This document shows, one piece after another, positions 11,648 to 35,553 of a DNA stretch of 35,729 bases. Location of the stretch: the IMG/VR virus record IMGVR_UViG_3300026253_000001, positions 1 through 35,729 of that record. One strand, 5' to 3'. A program made the translations under genes and the position numbers. Numbering within the stretch: position 1 is the stretch's first letter; each line of letters starts with the position of its first letter. The notes beneath the pieces were generated by a model. It was not told where the DNA came from, ran no database searches, and saw only the letters and a list, made by a program, of their open reading frames with translations. Source of the DNA: a virus.

Positions 11648-11775
11648 ACGTATGTGACAGATGTTGCTGTATAGAGAGCGCAGATAACCCCGTTAATATT
11701 ACCCTGACGCCGGAGGGTTATTTCTACGAGAATGTATGCGAGGAGTGCTCTGCTCTGGACTTTTATGAAGATTAG
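11644..11775 (+). CDS. 43-residue CxxC zinc-ribbon-like protein
   Basis: The ATG at 11644 follows a G-rich ribosome-binding region (AAGGGGGTGG) and overlaps the previous stop. Two cysteine knuckles, VCDRCCC near the start and VCEECS near the end, separated by a 20-odd-residue beta-like stretch, form a minimal zinc ribbon. Its stop lies 11 bases inside the large-terminase gene. It could be a terminase accessory or a regulatory zinc protein. The function is not known. Confidence 0.6.
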   Translation: MNVCDRCCCIESADNPVNITLTPEGYFYENVCEECSALDFYED

Positions 11776-13192
11776 CCTGCCCGCTGTCATGCCCCGCGAC
11801 TATCAGATCCCCTTCATGCGGGCATTTGACAACGGGGCGCAGTATTCCGTCATATCATGGCATCGACGTGCCGGCAAGGATGTGGCCTCCTTTAGTGCCC
11901 TAGTGAAGCGGGCCATACAGACGCCCGGTTCCTACTACTACCTCTTCCCTACCCGCACTTGGGCGGAGCGAGCCCTGTGGAATAACCTATGTGAGTGGGC
12001 CGGGGGTAAGAAGTTGATAGATATACTCTGTCCCCCCGAGATAGTACTTAAGAAGAACAACTCTGACTTCTATATTGACCTGATAAATGGGTCTAGGATC
12101 AAGATTGACGGCACAGACAACCTTAACTTCGTGGGGCAGGGGGGTTCGGGGTACGTATTATCAGAGTTCTCGCTACACAAGGAGGAGGTATCGGGTTTTC
12201 TGGCCCCTATTCTTACGGAGGGGAACGCTTGGGTCATCTTTAACGGGACGCTACGGGGTAAGTCTAACCACTTATGGCGTCTTTATGATAAGAATAAGAA
12301 CAGGGACGGATGGTTTACGGAGTGGTTGACCCTGGCCGACACCAAGACGTCGTACTGGGTGGGGAGCGACCTATGCGTTAACCCCGAGTTAGAGGGCATG
12401 ATAAGCCCCTACGATGGGCGTCCCTACAGGAACATCCAAGAGGACATAGACTCTGGAATCATTAGCCTTACCATGGCGCGGCAGGAGTTCTTGAACGAGG
12501 CTGTGTCGCAGGTAGAGAATAGCTACTATGGGCAGGAGCTTAGTCTCCTACGAGGGGAGGGGCGTTTTGGTGACGTCCCTGTAGGTTCTGGCCCTGTGTT
12601 CACGTTCTGGGACTTGGGTACTGCCGACTCTACCAGTATAGTTTTCGCCCACGTGGTAGACGGGAAGCCTATCGTCATAGACTATCACGAATCTAGCGGC
12701 AGGAAGATCGAGGACTACGCGACGGTTCTTAGTAGCCGGGGGTACAGGTACGGGGGTCACTTTGCCCCGCATGATGTTAGCAAGCGGATGCTTTTTGGCG
12801 ACCTAGTTACTAAGGCCAAGGACGTTGGCATAGACTTTAGGCGTGTTCCTAAGACTAACAATGTCCTTGCTGATATTGAGATATGCCGCCGCAAGCTGAA
12901 GCACACCTACATCTCCGACAGGTGCGAGGACTTGATGGATCACTTGGATAACTACCGGGAGGGCTCCTCCGGGCGTCCCCACCATGATGCTCACTCTCAT
13001 GGGGCCGACGCTTTACGTACAATGATGATGGCTATAGACCTTAACTTGGTAACTCCGTACCTATCCAGTGGGCACAAGGTGGTGCTTCCTGACATGGTAG
13101 GGGACGCAGAGGCATACACAGACGATACATGGGGGATGGATGATAGAGAAAGCAAAAGACCACTTTGGGAGCGATTTCGAGGCTCTCTTTGA
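11765..13192 (+). CDS. terL: Terminase large subunit (packaging ATPase-nuclease)
   Basis: A 475-residue protein from the ATG at 11765; an earlier in-frame ATG at 11732 has no ribosome-binding site and lies inside the zinc-ribbon gene. It powers DNA entry into the prohead and cuts the concatemer. Walker A is SWHRRAGKD (31-39), the Arg-rich variant common in this family, with Asp where Thr/Ser is usual. Walker B is represented by SGYVLSEFSL. The RNase-H-like nuclease follows with FWDLGTADSTSIVFAH, then HDVSKR, and DAHSHGADALR supplying acidic metal ligands. The length is a little below T7 gp19 (586). The end overlaps the next gene by 53 bases. Confidence 0.95.
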   Translation: MKISLPAVMPRDYQIPFMRAFDNGAQYSVISWHRRAGKDVASFSALVKRAIQTPGSYYYLFPTRTWAERALWNNLCEWAGGKKLIDILCPPEIVLKKNNSDFYIDLINGSRIKIDGTDNLNFVGQGGSGYVLSEFSLHKEEVSGFLAPILTEGNAWVIFNGTLRGKSNHLWRLYDKNKNRDGWFTEWLTLADTKTSYWVGSDLCVNPELEGMISPYDGRPYRNIQEDIDSGIISLTMARQEFLNEAVSQVENSYYGQELSLLRGEGRFGDVPVGSGPVFTFWDLGTADSTSIVFAHVVDGKPIVIDYHESSGRKIEDYATVLSSRGYRYGGHFAPHDVSKRMLFGDLVTKAKDVGIDFRRVPKTNNVLADIEICRRKLKHTYISDRCEDLMDHLDNYREGSSGRPHHDAHSHGADALRTMMMAIDLNLVTPYLSSGHKVVLPDMVGDAEAYTDDTWGMDDRESKRPLWERFRGSL

Positions 13193-16603: not shown

Positions 16604-16631
16604 TTGACATAATCTTATAAAGTGATATAGA
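16604..16631 (+). promoter_or_regulatory. Major capsid promoter
   Basis: A perfect TTGACA (16604-16609), a 16-base spacer, then TATAGA (16626-16631). This sigma70-type site lies just after the scaffold stop and would give the capsid gene its own strong transcript starting near 16638. It fits a phage that relies on host RNA polymerase. Confidence 0.6.
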
Positions 16632-16637
16632 TAAACG

Positions 16638-16778
16638 CAACAAAGTAGGGATAATCGAAAGACCCCTGCTAGTTGCCGTCAACCCAGACGTTAAGCGGTA
16701 GGCAAGACCTCCTTGTGAGATAATCAGAGCCGATTAGTTGGTAAATTAATTGAGCCTAATCTAAACAAGGAGATAATA
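16638..16778 (+). promoter_or_regulatory. Structured RNA leader of the capsid gene with anti-ribosome-binding element
   Basis: This 141-base untranslated leader contains several helices. AGUAGGG (16644-16650) pairs with CCCUGCU (16664-16670) under a GAAA loop. UUGCC (16673-16677) pairs with GGCAA (16701-16705) around a small GUC/GAC hairpin. CUCCUUGU (16709-16716) is the exact complement of ACAAGGAG (16765-16772), which is the ribosome-binding site of the capsid gene. GAUUAG (16732-16737) pairs with CUAAUC (16756-16761) inside that long helix. The design points to translational control: a riboswitch-like element, autogenous regulation or a processing site. I know no matching Rfam family. Confidence 0.55.
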
Positions 16779-17720
16779 ATGGCTAAACTTAACGACATTG
16801 ATAATGCTTTCGTAAAGCAGTATGGAGCTACGCTTGACCTCGTAGCCGAAATTAAAGGCGGCGTCTTTGCTGGCCTCGGTCTGGAAGGAACCATCAAGGG
16901 CGAGGAAGCATACTACGACCAGTTGGGCACTACGACAGCTTCGGTTGTTGGAGAATCTGGCACTAGCACCAGCTCCCCAGATGGAAGCATCACACATCTG
17001 CGCCGGAAACTGCTGGCAACTAACTACGAGATTGGTCTGGAGATTGACCGCTTCGACGTTCTGGAAACTCTAATCAACCCTGAGTCTGAATACGTACAGC
17101 GTCAGGTTTCTGCTCTTATGCGGAAGAAAGATATTGAGTTCATTACAGGTGCGTTGGGTCCTGCGGCTACCGGAAAGGGTGGGCTTAGTTCCAAAGACTT
17201 GGGTGACGCACAGACTATCGATGCCGACGGCGCGGGCCTGACTGTTGATAAGATCCGTCAAGCTCGCTCCCTTCTCTTGAAGGGTGGCGTTAACCTCGAT
17301 GATCCGTTGAACACGGCATATCTGGCCGTTACCCCACAGCAGATTGAAGACCTGCTGAACCTGCCCGAAGCCACCTCCGCTGACTATATGAACGTGAAGA
17401 CTCTGGTTAACGGAACGATTGATAGCTTCTATGGCTTCAAGATCATCGAGTCCAACCTGATTTCATTCATGGATTCCGATGACACGCTGGCCGGATGGGA
17501 TGCCGATGACATTCCTAAAGCCGCCGATACTGGTGAAATCCGGGGTTGTTTTGCATGGGTTAAGTCTGGTGTACGTTCTGCTACCGGCATGAACATCCAG
17601 ACCGAAGTTGCCAAACGTGCTGACCGCCGCTTCAACTACTACGCTTACTCTGCCGCTCGTTTCGGCTCGGTTCGCATGGAAGAAAAGAAGGTTGTTCTCA
17701 TCGAATGTGATGAAGCATAG
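16779..17720 (+). CDS. Major capsid protein
   Basis: A 313-residue HK97-fold-type capsid protein, by gene order (after scaffold, before tail tubular A) and sequence. An N-terminal arm is followed by an E-loop region (TTASVVGESGTSTSSPDGSI), a long spine-helix region (ESEYVQRQVSALMRKKDIEF) and a P-domain with YLAVTPQQIEDLLN, ending in a beta-rich C-terminus (RFGSVRMEEKKVVLIE). It is somewhat shorter than T7 gp10A (345). Codon use is smooth, as expected for the most abundant protein. Its ribosome-binding site AAGGAG lies inside the leader structure. It may also be the protein that regulates that leader, but this is not shown. Confidence 0.93.
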   Translation: MAKLNDIDNAFVKQYGATLDLVAEIKGGVFAGLGLEGTIKGEEAYYDQLGTTTASVVGESGTSTSSPDGSITHLRRKLLATNYEIGLEIDRFDVLETLINPESEYVQRQVSALMRKKDIEFITGALGPAATGKGGLSSKDLGDAQTIDADGAGLTVDKIRQARSLLLKGGVNLDDPLNTAYLAVTPQQIEDLLNLPEATSADYMNVKTLVNGTIDSFYGFKIIESNLISFMDSDDTLAGWDADDIPKAADTGEIRGCFAWVKSGVRSATGMNIQTEVAKRADRRFNYYAYSAARFGSVRMEEKKVVLIECDEA

Positions 17721-30627: not shown

Positions 30628-33600
30628 ATGGGAAAGTTAGAAAAGATTTCGAGCAACGGACAGACTAACAAAGATTGGCGCGACGTTATTGATGCTGGTA
30701 TCGACCGCATTAATGAGTCATCCATGGATAGTGACGTTACCTTAACCGTTAATGAAGCCACATCGGTGGTTGCTACTGGCTACATTGAGGGAACCTTTGG
30801 CTCTCTACAGGACGCCATTGACGCCGTACCCAAGAACTTGGGCGGCAAGTACCTTAAGGTACAGTTTGTGGGCACATCCGAGGCGGCTAAAACATACGCC
30901 TTTAATACTATGATCCAGTTCAAAAACTTCACTTCCGGCGGCATCCTTCTGCTGGGCGATGCGGCAGAGGATAATCAGGTCGACGGCGGCCGGGTACTTC
31001 ACTACGACCAGTCCAATACACTAGACTTTACGTCCAACACCTCCACCGAGGCGGGAACAGCGGGTATTGAGTTCAACCGTTGTGACGCCTTCCCCAAGGT
31101 TCGTAACCTTAAGCTTATGATCCCTGACACGGACGGATTCGAGGCCATACTTGGTTATGACTGCGACACTATCGAGGTAGACGGGTGCCAGATTACTGGT
31201 ACCATCGATGGGGAAAATAATAGCCGCGGGGTAACCTTTGTCTACTGTGATAACGCATCTGTCAGGAAGACCTACATTGATAGCGTTCGCTTTGGTGTTT
31301 ACTCGCGGCTGGGTTCGCAGGTATATGTAGATGAATCTCAATCACTTAATGGCTCCGACGAACGGCCGGATTACTTTACCTACGCTGGCACCGGCGGGAT
31401 TCTCACAAATAACTGCATACCTAAGCAGGGCTCTATCGCTGACTGTAGTGCCAGTACCGGAACTATCCGAAACACAGATGATATCTGGGTATATCTGAAC
31501 GAAACCATGAGCGGGGCAACGATACAGGACATCATTGATAGACAGCCCCGCAGTCTAAACGGCCGCGAGATTACGTTCCAGTTTGGTGACGGCACTTACG
31601 ACCTCGAACAAAAACTAATGTTCGTAGGCTTTGGTAATGGTGCGCTTAATATCCTAGGCAATGATGCCAACTCAAGTAGTGCTTCCTCCAAGTCTGTTAT
31701 CCTTAACTTCACGGACGCAGAATCCGGCATCTATGTTAGGCAGTGCGAAGAGCTTTACGTTCGGGATCTTTATATCAAAATCATTGACACTAGTGGCAAG
31801 GCCGCCCTGTCTTTGGAGCGGACTACAGAGAGCACGGTGGATTCCTGCTCACTTTACGTTAGCGGTACCGCGTTGAAAGATAACTACGGGATCAAATCAA
31901 CACGTACTAAGTCATTCATTCTCGACTGCTTCTTTGGTAACGGAGAGTACGGTATCTTTGCTGGCGAGGCGGCTCATGTTTCGGTAAAGAATGCCGGTGT
32001 GATTGATAGTGTGACGGCACCGGATTACGGTAACGCGGCTTATAACGGAGGGATCTTAGGGGCATTCGATAGCTTGCTTGAGGGCACGGTGGAGACGTTC
32101 CGCAAGAGCGATAGCGGCGTTATCACCAACCTCTTAACCCAAGAGTTGGACGATAATACCAACACCGCAATGGGCACGGAGGTCTTGAAATCCCTCGACG
32201 ACGGCGTGAACAACACGGGTGTTGGTTACAGAGCACTCAATGATAATATCGGCGGCGACCACAACACCGCCTTCGGATCGGGCTCCCTGAAGAATAATGA
32301 AGGCGGCGGTAACAATACGGCTGTCGGGGTGAACACGCTCCATTTAAACAAAGAAGGTACTAGTAACGTGGCTGTCGGATACGACGCGCTCAATCAATGT
32401 GAGACCTCGAAAAATACTGCTGTCGGGGCGAACGCGCTCAAGGTTAACGAAACAGGTATTAGTAACGTGGCTGTCGGATACGACGCGCTCGCCGCTAACA
32501 AAGCAAGTCACAATACGGCCACCGGGACGTGCTCGCTCAAGGCTAACACAACCGGCATCAAGAACGTAGCCGACGGAAAGAGCGCACTTAGGTTTAACAC
32601 CTCGGGCTCGTATAACACGGCTAGTGGTTACGAGGCACTCAAGGCCAACATCGAGGGCTCGGACAACACTGCCGTTGGTTACTTTGCGCTCAGGAATTCC
32701 GAAGGAGATGGTAGCGATAGCAATACGGCCGTTGGAGCATATGCCCTGACGGACAATGAGGGTGGCATTGAGAATACAGCCGTTGGAAGATCCGCGCTCT
32801 ACAAGAACAAAGAGGGCGTCGAAAACACCGCCATAGGAGTGAGCGCACTACACGACAACACCGCAAGTAACAACACGGCCATTGGTAAGGACGCACTGTA
32901 TAAAAACGTGGGAGGTGCCTTCAACACAGCCACCGGAGGGAGCGCGCTCTACACCAACGAGTCGGGCGCGGAAAATACTGCCACCGGATCGAACGCACTG
33001 AATAAAAATAAAGGGGGCGATGCCAACACCGCCGTCGGAGTAAGCACACTCCACGAAAACATAGAGGGTTCCAGCAATACAGCCGTTGGGAAGAAGGCAC
33101 TCTACTTCAACACCGACAACAACAACACTGCCGTCGGTAATTCCGCACTACACGACAACGACACCGGCCACCACAATACAGCTACAGGAACGGGCGCACT
33201 GTACGACAACACGGCTGGTATATACAATACAGCAAGCGGAGCGGACGCACTACAGGGCAACACAACGGGCTCGAACAATACCGCTGTCGGTCATTCTGCC
33301 CTAAAGGAAATAAACGCAGGCAACAACGACAACACAGCCGTTGGATATGAGGCACTCCTCAAGAACAACATGAGCGGCCTCACGGCTGTAGGGTCTGGTG
33401 CGCTCATGAGCAACACCTCCGGCCCCAACAACACTGGTATCGGAAGAGACGCACTCACGGCTAACACAGGTGGAGGTAACAACACTGCTGTCGGACATGC
33501 TTCGTTGAAGGCTAACGACGGAGGTAACAACAACGCGGCCTTCGGGATAAACGCACTCTACTTAAACACCTCGGGCTCACTTAATACTGCCACTGGAGCC

Positions 33601-35553
33601 AACGCACTCAAGAGCAACAACGGCACGAGCAACACGGCCGTCGGATACGACGCACTCCAAGGTAACACAACGGGTAATAACAATACCGCTGTCGGGAAGG
33701 AATCTCTCCGTTCGATTGGAGCCGGTAAACATCAAAACACGGGTGTTGGTGCGGAATCACTGTACCATTGCGGAGGCCCGAACAACACGGGTATCGGATA
33801 TCGAGCCCTAAAGGGTCTCACAGGTGCTACTGGCGATAACAACACTGCCGCCGGATATGATGCACTCTTAACTAATAAGCTGGGCAACAATAACACTGGC
33901 ATTGGAGCGTTAGCCCTGAAGTTGAATAAGGACGGCCATAACAACACTGCTGTTGGTAGATCCTCCCTAAGAACCAACGTCACCGGCAACTATAACACTG
34001 CTGTCGGATATGACGCATTGGCCGACAACACCGCAAGTGACAACACGTCAGTCGGATATAACTCCATGCTGAAAAACATAACCGGCGAGCAAAACACGGC
34101 CATTGGAGTAAGTGCACTCCGGGCTAACGTCGGAGGTGGCAATAATGTGGCAGTCGGCATGGGTGCACTCGACGCTAACGGACCTTCAGGCAATAACAGT
34201 ACTCAGGGCTATAACAACACAGCCATTGGAGTAAGTGCACTCAAGGCTAACACGACTGGCGAATCCAATACTGCAGTCGGAAGAACTGCCCTCTTCGCCA
34301 ACACAGGCGGCACGCACAACACAGCTACTGGAACTGGCGCACTCAATGCTAATACAAACGGCGACTACAACACTGCAGTCGGGAGATATGCCCTTAAAAA
34401 CCCGACGGGTGAGAACGCTAATAGAAACACGGCAGTCGGTGCGAGTGCCCTTTACGGAGCTGTGAATGGCAACGGCGCGGACAACACTGCCATCGGATAC
34501 AACACACTCTACTCTGACGACGGCGGAGCTCAGAACACAGCCTTAGGGTCTCACGCGCTTTACAAAAACGACGACGGTGACAGCAACACCGCCAGTGGTT
34601 ACAAGGCACTCTTCGAGAACACCGAAGGAAACAGCAACACCGCCACCGGAGGAAACGCACTTAGGGCTAACATAATCGGCAACCAAAACACAGCCGCCGG
34701 AATGAGCGCACTTAGGTTTAACAAAGCAAATTACAACACGGCTGACGGATATTGTGCGCTTTACACCAACGACGGTGGCGCCGGGAACACAGCCGTTGGA
34801 CGCTCCTCGCTCTATAGTAACACCCAAGGAGACGACAACGCGGCTTGCGGATCAAGTGCACTCTACTTCAACACGAGTGGCACGAGCAACGCGGCCCTTG
34901 GACAAAACGCACTCAACGGCAACATCACGGGAGGCTCAAACACGGCCGTTGGTTACAAGGCACTCTTCGAGAACGAAACCGGCGGTAACAATACGGCCAG
35001 TGGATACCACGCACTCCTATCTAACACCGCAAGTAACAATACGGCCACCGGATACGAGGCCCTCCAGGCCAACGTGGGTGGCGACAGGAATACTGCCAGC
35101 GGAAGATCAGCCCTCTTCGCCAATGTTTCTGGAAACTACAACACCGCCATGGGAAATAGCGCGCTCAGGGCTAACACAGAGGGTCATGAAAACGCGGCGT
35201 TTGGTCGGAACGCAGGGTATTACCTCAACGATGGTTCCTCTGAAAACGAAACCTCCTCTGACTCGTTGTTCCTCGGTGCGGAGACTAAGGCAAAGGATGC
35301 TGGCGGCACTAATGAAATTGTAATCGGATACGGTGCCACAGGTAACGGCAGTAACACCGCAACCTACGGCAACGGAAGCATTGGAGAGCATGTGTTCGCC
35401 AACGGTAACCTCGTTGTGGCATCTCCCAATGTACCGACAGAGGGGGCCGGCTCGGACGGCATTACGGGAGAAATCGCGTGGGATGCTGGATTTGTTTATG
35501 TCTGCACAGCCACCAATACATGGAAACGCACAGCAATATCTACTTGGTCATAG
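30628..35553 (+). CDS. Giant repeat tail fibre / adhesin (YadA-head-like)
   Basis: A 1641-residue virion fibre candidate. Residues 1-45 are a short helical lead. About 58-260 and 298-478 are two diverged copies of a right-handed beta-helix module. Residues 512-1539 are some 60 tandem repeats of about 17 residues, consensus N-T-A-V-G-x-x-A-L-x-x-N-x-x-G-x-x, closely like the NSVAxG repeats of trimeric autotransporter heads, so a trimeric beta-roll rod is expected. The repeats close with a TAA-head-like NEIVIGYGATGNGSN block, and the end (VYVCTATNTWKRT) resembles the small C-terminal domain of phage fibres. There is no T7-type anchor, so it probably joins the preceding 427-residue protein. AGGGG precedes the ATG. 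Confidence 0.85.
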   Translation: MGKLEKISSNGQTNKDWRDVIDAGIDRINESSMDSDVTLTVNEATSVVATGYIEGTFGSLQDAIDAVPKNLGGKYLKVQFVGTSEAAKTYAFNTMIQFKNFTSGGILLLGDAAEDNQVDGGRVLHYDQSNTLDFTSNTSTEAGTAGIEFNRCDAFPKVRNLKLMIPDTDGFEAILGYDCDTIEVDGCQITGTIDGENNSRGVTFVYCDNASVRKTYIDSVRFGVYSRLGSQVYVDESQSLNGSDERPDYFTYAGTGGILTNNCIPKQGSIADCSASTGTIRNTDDIWVYLNETMSGATIQDIIDRQPRSLNGREITFQFGDGTYDLEQKLMFVGFGNGALNILGNDANSSSASSKSVILNFTDAESGIYVRQCEELYVRDLYIKIIDTSGKAALSLERTTESTVDSCSLYVSGTALKDNYGIKSTRTKSFILDCFFGNGEYGIFAGEAAHVSVKNAGVIDSVTAPDYGNAAYNGGILGAFDSLLEGTVETFRKSDSGVITNLLTQELDDNTNTAMGTEVLKSLDDGVNNTGVGYRALNDNIGGDHNTAFGSGSLKNNEGGGNNTAVGVNTLHLNKEGTSNVAVGYDALNQCETSKNTAVGANALKVNETGISNVAVGYDALAANKASHNTATGTCSLKANTTGIKNVADGKSALRFNTSGSYNTASGYEALKANIEGSDNTAVGYFALRNSEGDGSDSNTAVGAYALTDNEGGIENTAVGRSALYKNKEGVENTAIGVSALHDNTASNNTAIGKDALYKNVGGAFNTATGGSALYTNESGAENTATGSNALNKNKGGDANTAVGVSTLHENIEGSSNTAVGKKALYFNTDNNNTAVGNSALHDNDTGHHNTATGTGALYDNTAGIYNTASGADALQGNTTGSNNTAVGHSALKEINAGNNDNTAVGYEALLKNNMSGLTAVGSGALMSNTSGPNNTGIGRDALTANTGGGNNTAVGHASLKANDGGNNNAAFGINALYLNTSGSLNTATGANALKSNNGTSNTAVGYDALQGNTTGNNNTAVGKESLRSIGAGKHQNTGVGAESLYHCGGPNNTGIGYRALKGLTGATGDNNTAAGYDALLTNKLGNNNTGIGALALKLNKDGHNNTAVGRSSLRTNVTGNYNTAVGYDALADNTASDNTSVGYNSMLKNITGEQNTAIGVSALRANVGGGNNVAVGMGALDANGPSGNNSTQGYNNTAIGVSALKANTTGESNTAVGRTALFANTGGTHNTATGTGALNANTNGDYNTAVGRYALKNPTGENANRNTAVGASALYGAVNGNGADNTAIGYNTLYSDDGGAQNTALGSHALYKNDDGDSNTASGYKALFENTEGNSNTATGGNALRANIIGNQNTAAGMSALRFNKANYNTADGYCALYTNDGGAGNTAVGRSSLYSNTQGDDNAACGSSALYFNTSGTSNAALGQNALNGNITGGSNTAVGYKALFENETGGNNTASGYHALLSNTASNNTATGYEALQANVGGDRNTASGRSALFANVSGNYNTAMGNSALRANTEGHENAAFGRNAGYYLNDGSSENETSSDSLFLGAETKAKDAGGTNEIVIGYGATGNGSNTATYGNGSIGEHVFANGNLVVASPNVPTEGAGSDGITGEIAWDAGFVYVCTATNTWKRTAISTWS
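32161..35244 (+). repeat. About 60 tandem ~51-base coding repeats in the fibre gene
   Basis: In-frame repeats of 48-72 bases (mostly 51), each coding for N-T-A-x-G, two variable residues, A-L, two variable residues, N, two variable, G and two variable. Conserved and variable positions alternate. No two units I compared were identical at the DNA level, so this is an old, diversified array and not a recent expansion. Occasional units are a residue or two shorter or longer, and one carries an extra seven residues (GNNSTQGYN region, near 34180-34213). Confidence 0.93.

Follow-up and report, generated by a model that had tools for sequence, protein, structure and literature searches.

A conserved leader RNA with a repeated bulge module before a podovirus capsid gene, a candidate cis-regulatory switch

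Results

The Capsid Gene, Its Promoter, and Its Leader

The window, by which we mean the whole stretch of 35,729 nucleotides that was analysed, is a 35.7-kb podovirus contig in which the capsid gene lies downstream of portal and scaffold-like genes. A first-pass annotation made from the sequence had named this gene as encoding the capsid protein, and this identity was borne out by the Pfam search (PF19821, E 5.8e-52) and the PHROG search (PHROG 3437, major head protein, E 1.2e-59). Elsewhere in the window, the sole match in the terminase position (11732-13189) was phrog_2472, a PHROG of unknown function, and a 1,641-aa protein with many NTA.G...AL repeats (30628-35553) is probably a tail fibre; tandem DNA repeats were detectable over a short part of it alone.

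The elements quoted in the first-pass annotation, namely the TTGACA box, the exact complementarity of an 8-base element with the Shine-Dalgarno (SD) region, GAUUAG/CUAAUC, a GAAA-loop hairpin and UUGCC/GGCAA, were all found in place. The features retained here are as follows.

16604-16631, + strand: promoter, read directly, with -35 TTGACA (16604-16609), a 16-nt spacer and an extended -10 TG-N-TATAGA (16623-16631)
16637-16676, + strand: P1, GCAAC (16637-16641) with GUUGC (16672-16676), covarying pairs 6-47 and 9-44
16644-16670, + strand: P2, first bulge module, stem AGUAGGG/CCCUGCU with GAAA tetraloop (16657-16660), covariation
16677-16698, + strand: P3 hairpin CGUC/GACG (16677-16690) with loop AACCCA, and its pseudoknot, covariation and divergent replacements
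16701-16731, + strand: P4/P5, second bulge module, GGC/GCC and GA/UC, bulge AUAA (16720-16723) opposite C16708
16709-16716, + strand: anti-SD arm CUCCUUGU, common to P5 and the SD-blocking helix, paired in 49-51 of 51 relatives
16732-16751, + strand: inner stem of the predicted SD-blocked form, GAUUAGU/AUUAAUU, pair changes
16765-16772, + strand: Shine-Dalgarno sequence ACAAGGAG of the capsid gene, blocked in that form, exact complement of CUCCUUGU
16779-17720, + strand: major capsid protein (Phage_capsid_2), 313 aa, Pfam PF19821, PHROG 3437

The proposed promoter was well conserved, TTGACA being found 72-77 nt 5' of P3 in 52 of 53 relatives. Since this spacing is fixed, RNA synthesis is expected to start at the first base of P1, and the transcription start is thus placed at about 16637-16638. 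Counted from this inferred start, the leader measures about 141-142 nt (16637-16778) and contains no gene.

Relatives of the Leader and Fold Stability

A search with the capsid protein led to 24 viral contigs and three leader patterns added more, from which we extracted 58 distinct leaders, each directly 5' of a PF19821 major capsid gene. In group A, a 145-nt region was 84% identical per column while the capsids ranged from 99% down to 52% identity, and the primary sequence of the loops and bulges was more conserved than the capsid protein. Group B, to which L062 belongs, kept the core but had changes in P1, P2, and the pseudoknot. One contig of 62,102 bases (IMGVR_UViG_3300030090_002183) carries two differing leader-capsid copies (L071 and L082) tens of kb apart; it is probably a chimera made in assembly or a junction of two phage genomes.

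The first-pass annotation had described the leader as structured and had proposed beforehand that its fold be compared with shuffled controls and that relatives be examined for covariation; on both counts, the proposal withstood the refuting conditions set in advance. The minimum free energy of the leader from 16638 was -41 kcal/mol, that of its shuffles -25.5 on average (z -4.24); with the first codons included, the values were -42.9 and -28.9 kcal/mol (z -4.12), and 0 of 200 shuffles were as good in both cases. In the alignment of 54 sequences, 94.8% of the cells of P1-P2-P3-pseudoknot-P4-P5 were paired, compared to 27-41% in slid versions, and the covariation score was 0.250 vs 0.129 in shuffled and 0.043-0.073 in slid versions. 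Sequence comparison showed covariation in P1, in P2, in the SD helix and in the pseudoknot. When substitutions were redistributed on the tree in a home-made, R-scape-like test, the four highest-ranking among 5,995 column pairs belonged to P2 (17-37), the pseudoknot, the SD helix, and again P2 (E 0.003, 0.15, 1.5, and 2.5); as P2 pair 17-37 alone reached E < 0.05, we take this ranking as an enrichment and not as four significant pairs. The small number of significant pairs is explained by the youth of the clade.

Architecture of the Leader

As read from the alignments, the leader begins with P1, followed by P2, which carries an AYAA/C bulge, then by P3, whose loop forms a pseudoknot, and finally by P4/P5, which repeats the same bulge. 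P1 changed pairs at two positions among the 51 relatives (pair 6-47: C-G in 27, U-A in 20, and U-G in 3; pair 9-44: C-G in 45, U-G in 3, and U-A in 2). P2 corresponds to the GAAA-loop hairpin of the first-pass annotation; five of its six outer pairs covary in the 54-sequence alignment, and its bulge AUAA (16651-16654) faces C16663, with UC/GA as inner pairs. The stem of P3 was invariant within the clade; L206 has AGAC/GUCU in its place, and L209 has AAGG/CCUU. Its pseudoknot joins CC of the loop (16684-16685) to GG at 16697-16698; pair 57-69 was C-G in 39 sequences, U-A in 10 and never broken, and pair 56-70 was C-G in 46 and U-A in 2. P4/P5 was nearly invariant in the clade. P5, a local hairpin of CUC (16709-16711) with GAG (16717-16719), recurs with other pairs in L099, L111, L206, L209, and L220, the divergent versions being CUCGA/UCGAG or CCCG/CGGG.

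Two of the stems initially proposed fared less well. UUGCC (16673-16677) and GGCAA (16701-16705) are complementary in the window, but the middle pair is broken in 20 of 51 relatives, and P1, which covaries, competes for the same bases, so that we rejected this stem. Likewise, GAUUAG (16732-16737) can pair with CUAAUC (16756-16761) in the window, but CUAAUC is not conserved; in the relatives, it is AUUAAUU that is conserved as the partner of GAUUAGU. The first-pass annotation had overlooked P1, the pseudoknot of P3, the repetition of the bulge, and the local hairpin CUC/GAG, a competitor for the anti-SD arm.

A Bulge Module Present Twice

The module consists of a helix, four bases (AYAA, AYAC, or GUAG), and a second helix, the opposite base being C, C, or U, respectively. 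Since an A in the first of the four positions stands opposite C, and a G opposite U, the sequences suggest a three-base bulge beside a wobble-like A.C or G.U mismatch. The module is present in P2 and, with the strands exchanged, in P4/P5. A strict search of 23 divergent leaders, some of which had served in defining the pattern and several of which came from one clade, recovered the P2 type in 16 (0.5 in shuffled sequences), the P4/P5 type in 14 (1.2), and both in order in 11 (0.0). The only independent test was made on 63 unseen capsid leaders from 289 alphaproteobacterial genomes and a second class; it gave 15 for the P2 type (shuffled 1.2), 16 for the P4/P5 type (4.0), and 5 for both in order (0.0). 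The strict scan of both strands of 14 contigs (342 kb strand-bases) produced 10 matches, all of them capsid leaders.

The two modules were of the same type in 13 of 16 cases and discordant in three (p 0.0005); in five of these 16, the type was assigned by eye or required a relaxed stem. This shared type suggests either one recognition partner or a mutual contact.

Two Mutually Exclusive Pairings of the Anti-SD Arm

The first-pass annotation had proposed that the 8-base element can cover the capsid ribosome-binding site, and the relatives argue for this proposal. In the SD helix, seven of eight positions (CUCCUUG/CAAGGAG) were paired in 49-51 of 51 distinct relatives, with compensatory exchanges from G-C to U-A in 13 sequences and from U-A to A-U in one; pair 87-107 ranked third of the 5,995 column pairs under the phylogenetic null. 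The SD core is restricted in its covariation, and the support comes from one strongly and one weakly varying pair. The predicted pairing probability of the SD was 0.85 compared to 0.44 in shuffles, with 1 of 60 shuffles as high. In the inner stem, pair 100-124 was A-U in 24 sequences and U-A in three, and pairs 99-125 and 104-120 changed from G-U to G-C in one sequence. Six leaders (L062, L063, L064, L076, L086, and L107) carry an inserted hairpin (GCUG/CAGC or similar) in the loop of this stem in its SD-blocked form, which also argues for the inner stem.

In the window clade, P5 and the SD helix both draw on CUCCUUGU and are mutually exclusive, and both arms are conserved. The predicted energies, in which the pseudoknot is uncounted, were -45.3 kcal/mol for the SD-blocked form, -36.4 for the best SD-free form, and -31.4 with P4/P5 enforced. 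On the same basis, the enforced module form is less stable than the blocked one by about 14 kcal/mol, so that a large binding energy or kinetic folding would be needed; in this model, the blocked form would win at equilibrium unless the other form were held or trapped co-transcriptionally.

Distribution of the Leader

A covariance model (R1) was built from 54 leaders. Its matches outside the building set (L099, 3e-7; L118, 4e-6; L220, 1e-5; L111 and L120, 5e-5; L209, 1e-4; L206, 1e-3; L218 and L219, weakly) all lay directly before a capsid gene, and the capsids of L099 and L120 are 28% identical to that of the window. Through the protein, we reached the cultured relatives HTVC010P, Skadi, Greip, phiVC8, VP2, K300, ZP6, and YeP4. 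One or both bulged hairpins occur in many of their capsid leaders, some being recognised by eye alone; in HTVC010P, P2 lies within the 3' end of the preceding gene. Judged from these sequences, an anatomy with two bulges is shared by phages of Pelagibacter, Vibrio, and Alteromonas and by prophages of Alphaproteobacteria. The PF19821 capsid family was present in 73 of 289 sampled alphaproteobacterial genomes, which indicates that such phages or prophages are very common in Alphaproteobacteria, and in 2 of 274 genomes of the second class.

Other searches were less productive. Searching annotated phages at the nucleotide level with the leader as query returned nothing useful, and the profile search with eight divergent capsids gave no result, conserved peptides being lacking. 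A cellular origin, or copies elsewhere, was rejected: 84,980 genomes contained 46 pattern matches, about the number expected by chance, none of them before a capsid gene, and the stretches read out were unlike the element. About 20 viral matches to a relaxed pattern (L129-L152), before a 63-aa protein or inside genes, were also set aside.

SD Masking and Terminators in the Relatives

The pairing of the SD exceeded that of shuffles in the window clade, L120, L217, L219, L209, and YeP4, the partner in L209 being the tip of P2 and not P5. In the HTVC-type pelagiphages, phiVC8, VP2, ZP6, L206, L111, and L218, it was no higher than in shuffles, and universal SD masking is thus rejected. An intrinsic terminator within 200 nt 5' of the capsid gene was found in 13 of 63 prophage-type leaders (among them L258, L249, L253, L285, L287, L288, L291, and L275), compared to 0.7 expected; in L287, L288, L285, and L291 it lies downstream of a module. 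The window leader has no terminator, and there was one, far upstream, among 22 phage leaders. By analogy, a core with exchangeable outputs would fit riboswitches and protein-binding leaders, and would leave room for antitermination.

Discussion

A Possible Switch of Capsid Translation and Its Alternatives

The computations establish a conserved structured RNA, with its helices and its pseudoknot, that is tied to the capsid gene, carries a repeated module and shares its anti-SD arm between two pairings. That this RNA switches, that holding the modules leaves the SD free, and that the partner is a protein is what we infer beyond this. We consider it probable that the leader is a bipartite cis-regulatory RNA switch, in which a grip on the modules would free the capsid SD and the loss of this grip would bury it. 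The putative sensing half carries two copies of an asymmetric internal loop (P2 and P4/P5) flanking the pseudoknotted P3; in the window clade, CUCCUUGU can either close P5, completing the second module, or pair with the capsid SD, never both. A factor gripping both modules would keep P5 closed and the ribosome site free, and in its absence the more stable long hairpin would form, resulting in low capsid translation. Because both modules usually change type together, this factor would most likely be a phage RNA-binding protein. As transcription reaches the SD only after P4/P5, the SD-free form may also be the early kinetic form. In the relatives, the same core precedes other outputs, including an intrinsic terminator. 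More tentatively, and with slightly less than even confidence, we suggest that all these leaders form one ancient class of capsid RNA switches of PF19821 podoviruses and prophages, in which two co-evolving modules would read a phage-specific factor and the output would be either translational or a terminator.

The presence of a terminator in some prophage leaders makes a transcription antitermination element, similar to HK022 put, whose action on RNA polymerase is direct, or to lambda nut, which works by way of a phage protein, the main rival. Such an element would ensure read-through near the capsid gene once the late promoter fires, SD pairing being secondary. The RNA does begin right behind a conserved promoter, as putL does (PMC9378689), it contains two bulged stem-loops, and the terminators of the 13 prophage-type leaders lie between the core and the capsid gene. 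We nevertheless consider this explanation unlikely, since the core stops at the capsid SD and, in the 342-kb scan, was found at capsid leaders alone, the exchanges in the SD arm match the SD, and terminators are lacking in the window leader and, with the one far-upstream exception, among the phage leaders. Moreover, the stem-loops lie close behind a promoter in the marine clade, but no such TTGACA promoter was seen before the core in L099, L118, and L120.

Autogenous repression, in which the capsid or scaffold protein would stabilise the SD-blocked form and lower translation as free subunits accumulate, would agree with the strict link to the capsid gene, and two co-varying modules would suit a dimeric phage protein. 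It seems to us a still poorer explanation, quite improbable, since in the window clade one strand of the second module is also a strand of the SD helix, so that binding would open the SD, and since the Pfam and PHROG searches detected no domain for RNA binding in either the capsid or the scaffold protein. Finally, a passive translation or stability element, whose structured 5' end would protect or channel an abundant mRNA and be melted by ribosomes without any switch, would suit the strong folding energy and the fact that few phage mRNAs are usually used as much as that of the capsid, but it is very improbable, as loops and bulges more conserved than the capsid protein and an arm common to two exclusive helices are unexpected for a passive hairpin.

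Capsid protein is among the costliest phage products and needs both timing and dosing. If the proposed cis-regulatory switch is real, it would be a virion-assembly control point shared by abundant ocean phages of the HTVC010P type, Vibrio and Alteromonas phages, and alphaproteobacterial prophages. The leader would also give access to late gene control in phages that are difficult to grow, and would be a candidate for a new RNA-protein or RNA-ligand pair.

Comparison With Known Systems

No match at the gathering cut-off to any of the 4,227 families of Rfam 15 was obtained in the window, at eight loci or at 20 further loci. The 3' end of the leader gave sub-threshold matches to DUF2815 RNA (RF03084; 16.0 bits vs a cut-off of 41.2) and Mu-gpT-DE RNA (RF03012; 10.4 vs 49); neither the pseudoknot nor the paired bulge modules were aligned, and the leader is not a member of these families. 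The GGC...GCC core, which we take to resemble c-di-GMP-I, has no Rfam support for this likeness, which we therefore discarded.

The leader shares with translational riboswitches a conserved folded domain and an arm common to an inner hairpin and an SD-blocking helix, and its relatives share with that class the use of alternative outputs (terminator). As far as the sequences tell, it has a conserved structured domain in the 5' UTR, putatively sensing, and, in the window clade, an expression platform that would be exclusive with the putative sensing fold. It differs in that it controls a virion structural gene and matches no Rfam 15 riboswitch family. In the MS2 coat operator and the leaders of ribosomal protein genes, a structural protein acts through RNA hairpins located at the ribosome site; these systems consist of a single hairpin or an rRNA mimic and act by repression, whereas here the anti-SD arm is held in a second module.

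The HK022 put RNA is also a cis-acting phage RNA with two bulged stem-loops near a promoter; it is about 70 nt long, belongs to early operons and acts on RNA polymerase (PMC9378689). Compared by description, our leader differs from put by its core of about 100 nt, its P3 pseudoknot and its tie to the capsid gene and SD. The glutamine riboswitch of the marine phage Melnitz and the pelagiphage Mosig, linked to the phage tmRNA gene (PMC9004378), is another cis-regulatory RNA of marine phages, but it belongs to a known class and is unrelated in sequence and place. In phiVC8, the authors annotated a promoter inside what is here the leader core (PMC4802629); this annotated capsid promoter (L202, 1100-1150) overlaps P4/P5 and may be a mis-annotation.

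We found no earlier description of the leader in the open-access literature. A cis-regulatory leader is an element of a known kind; the present family, and the use of such an RNA to control a gene for the virion shell, appear to be new.
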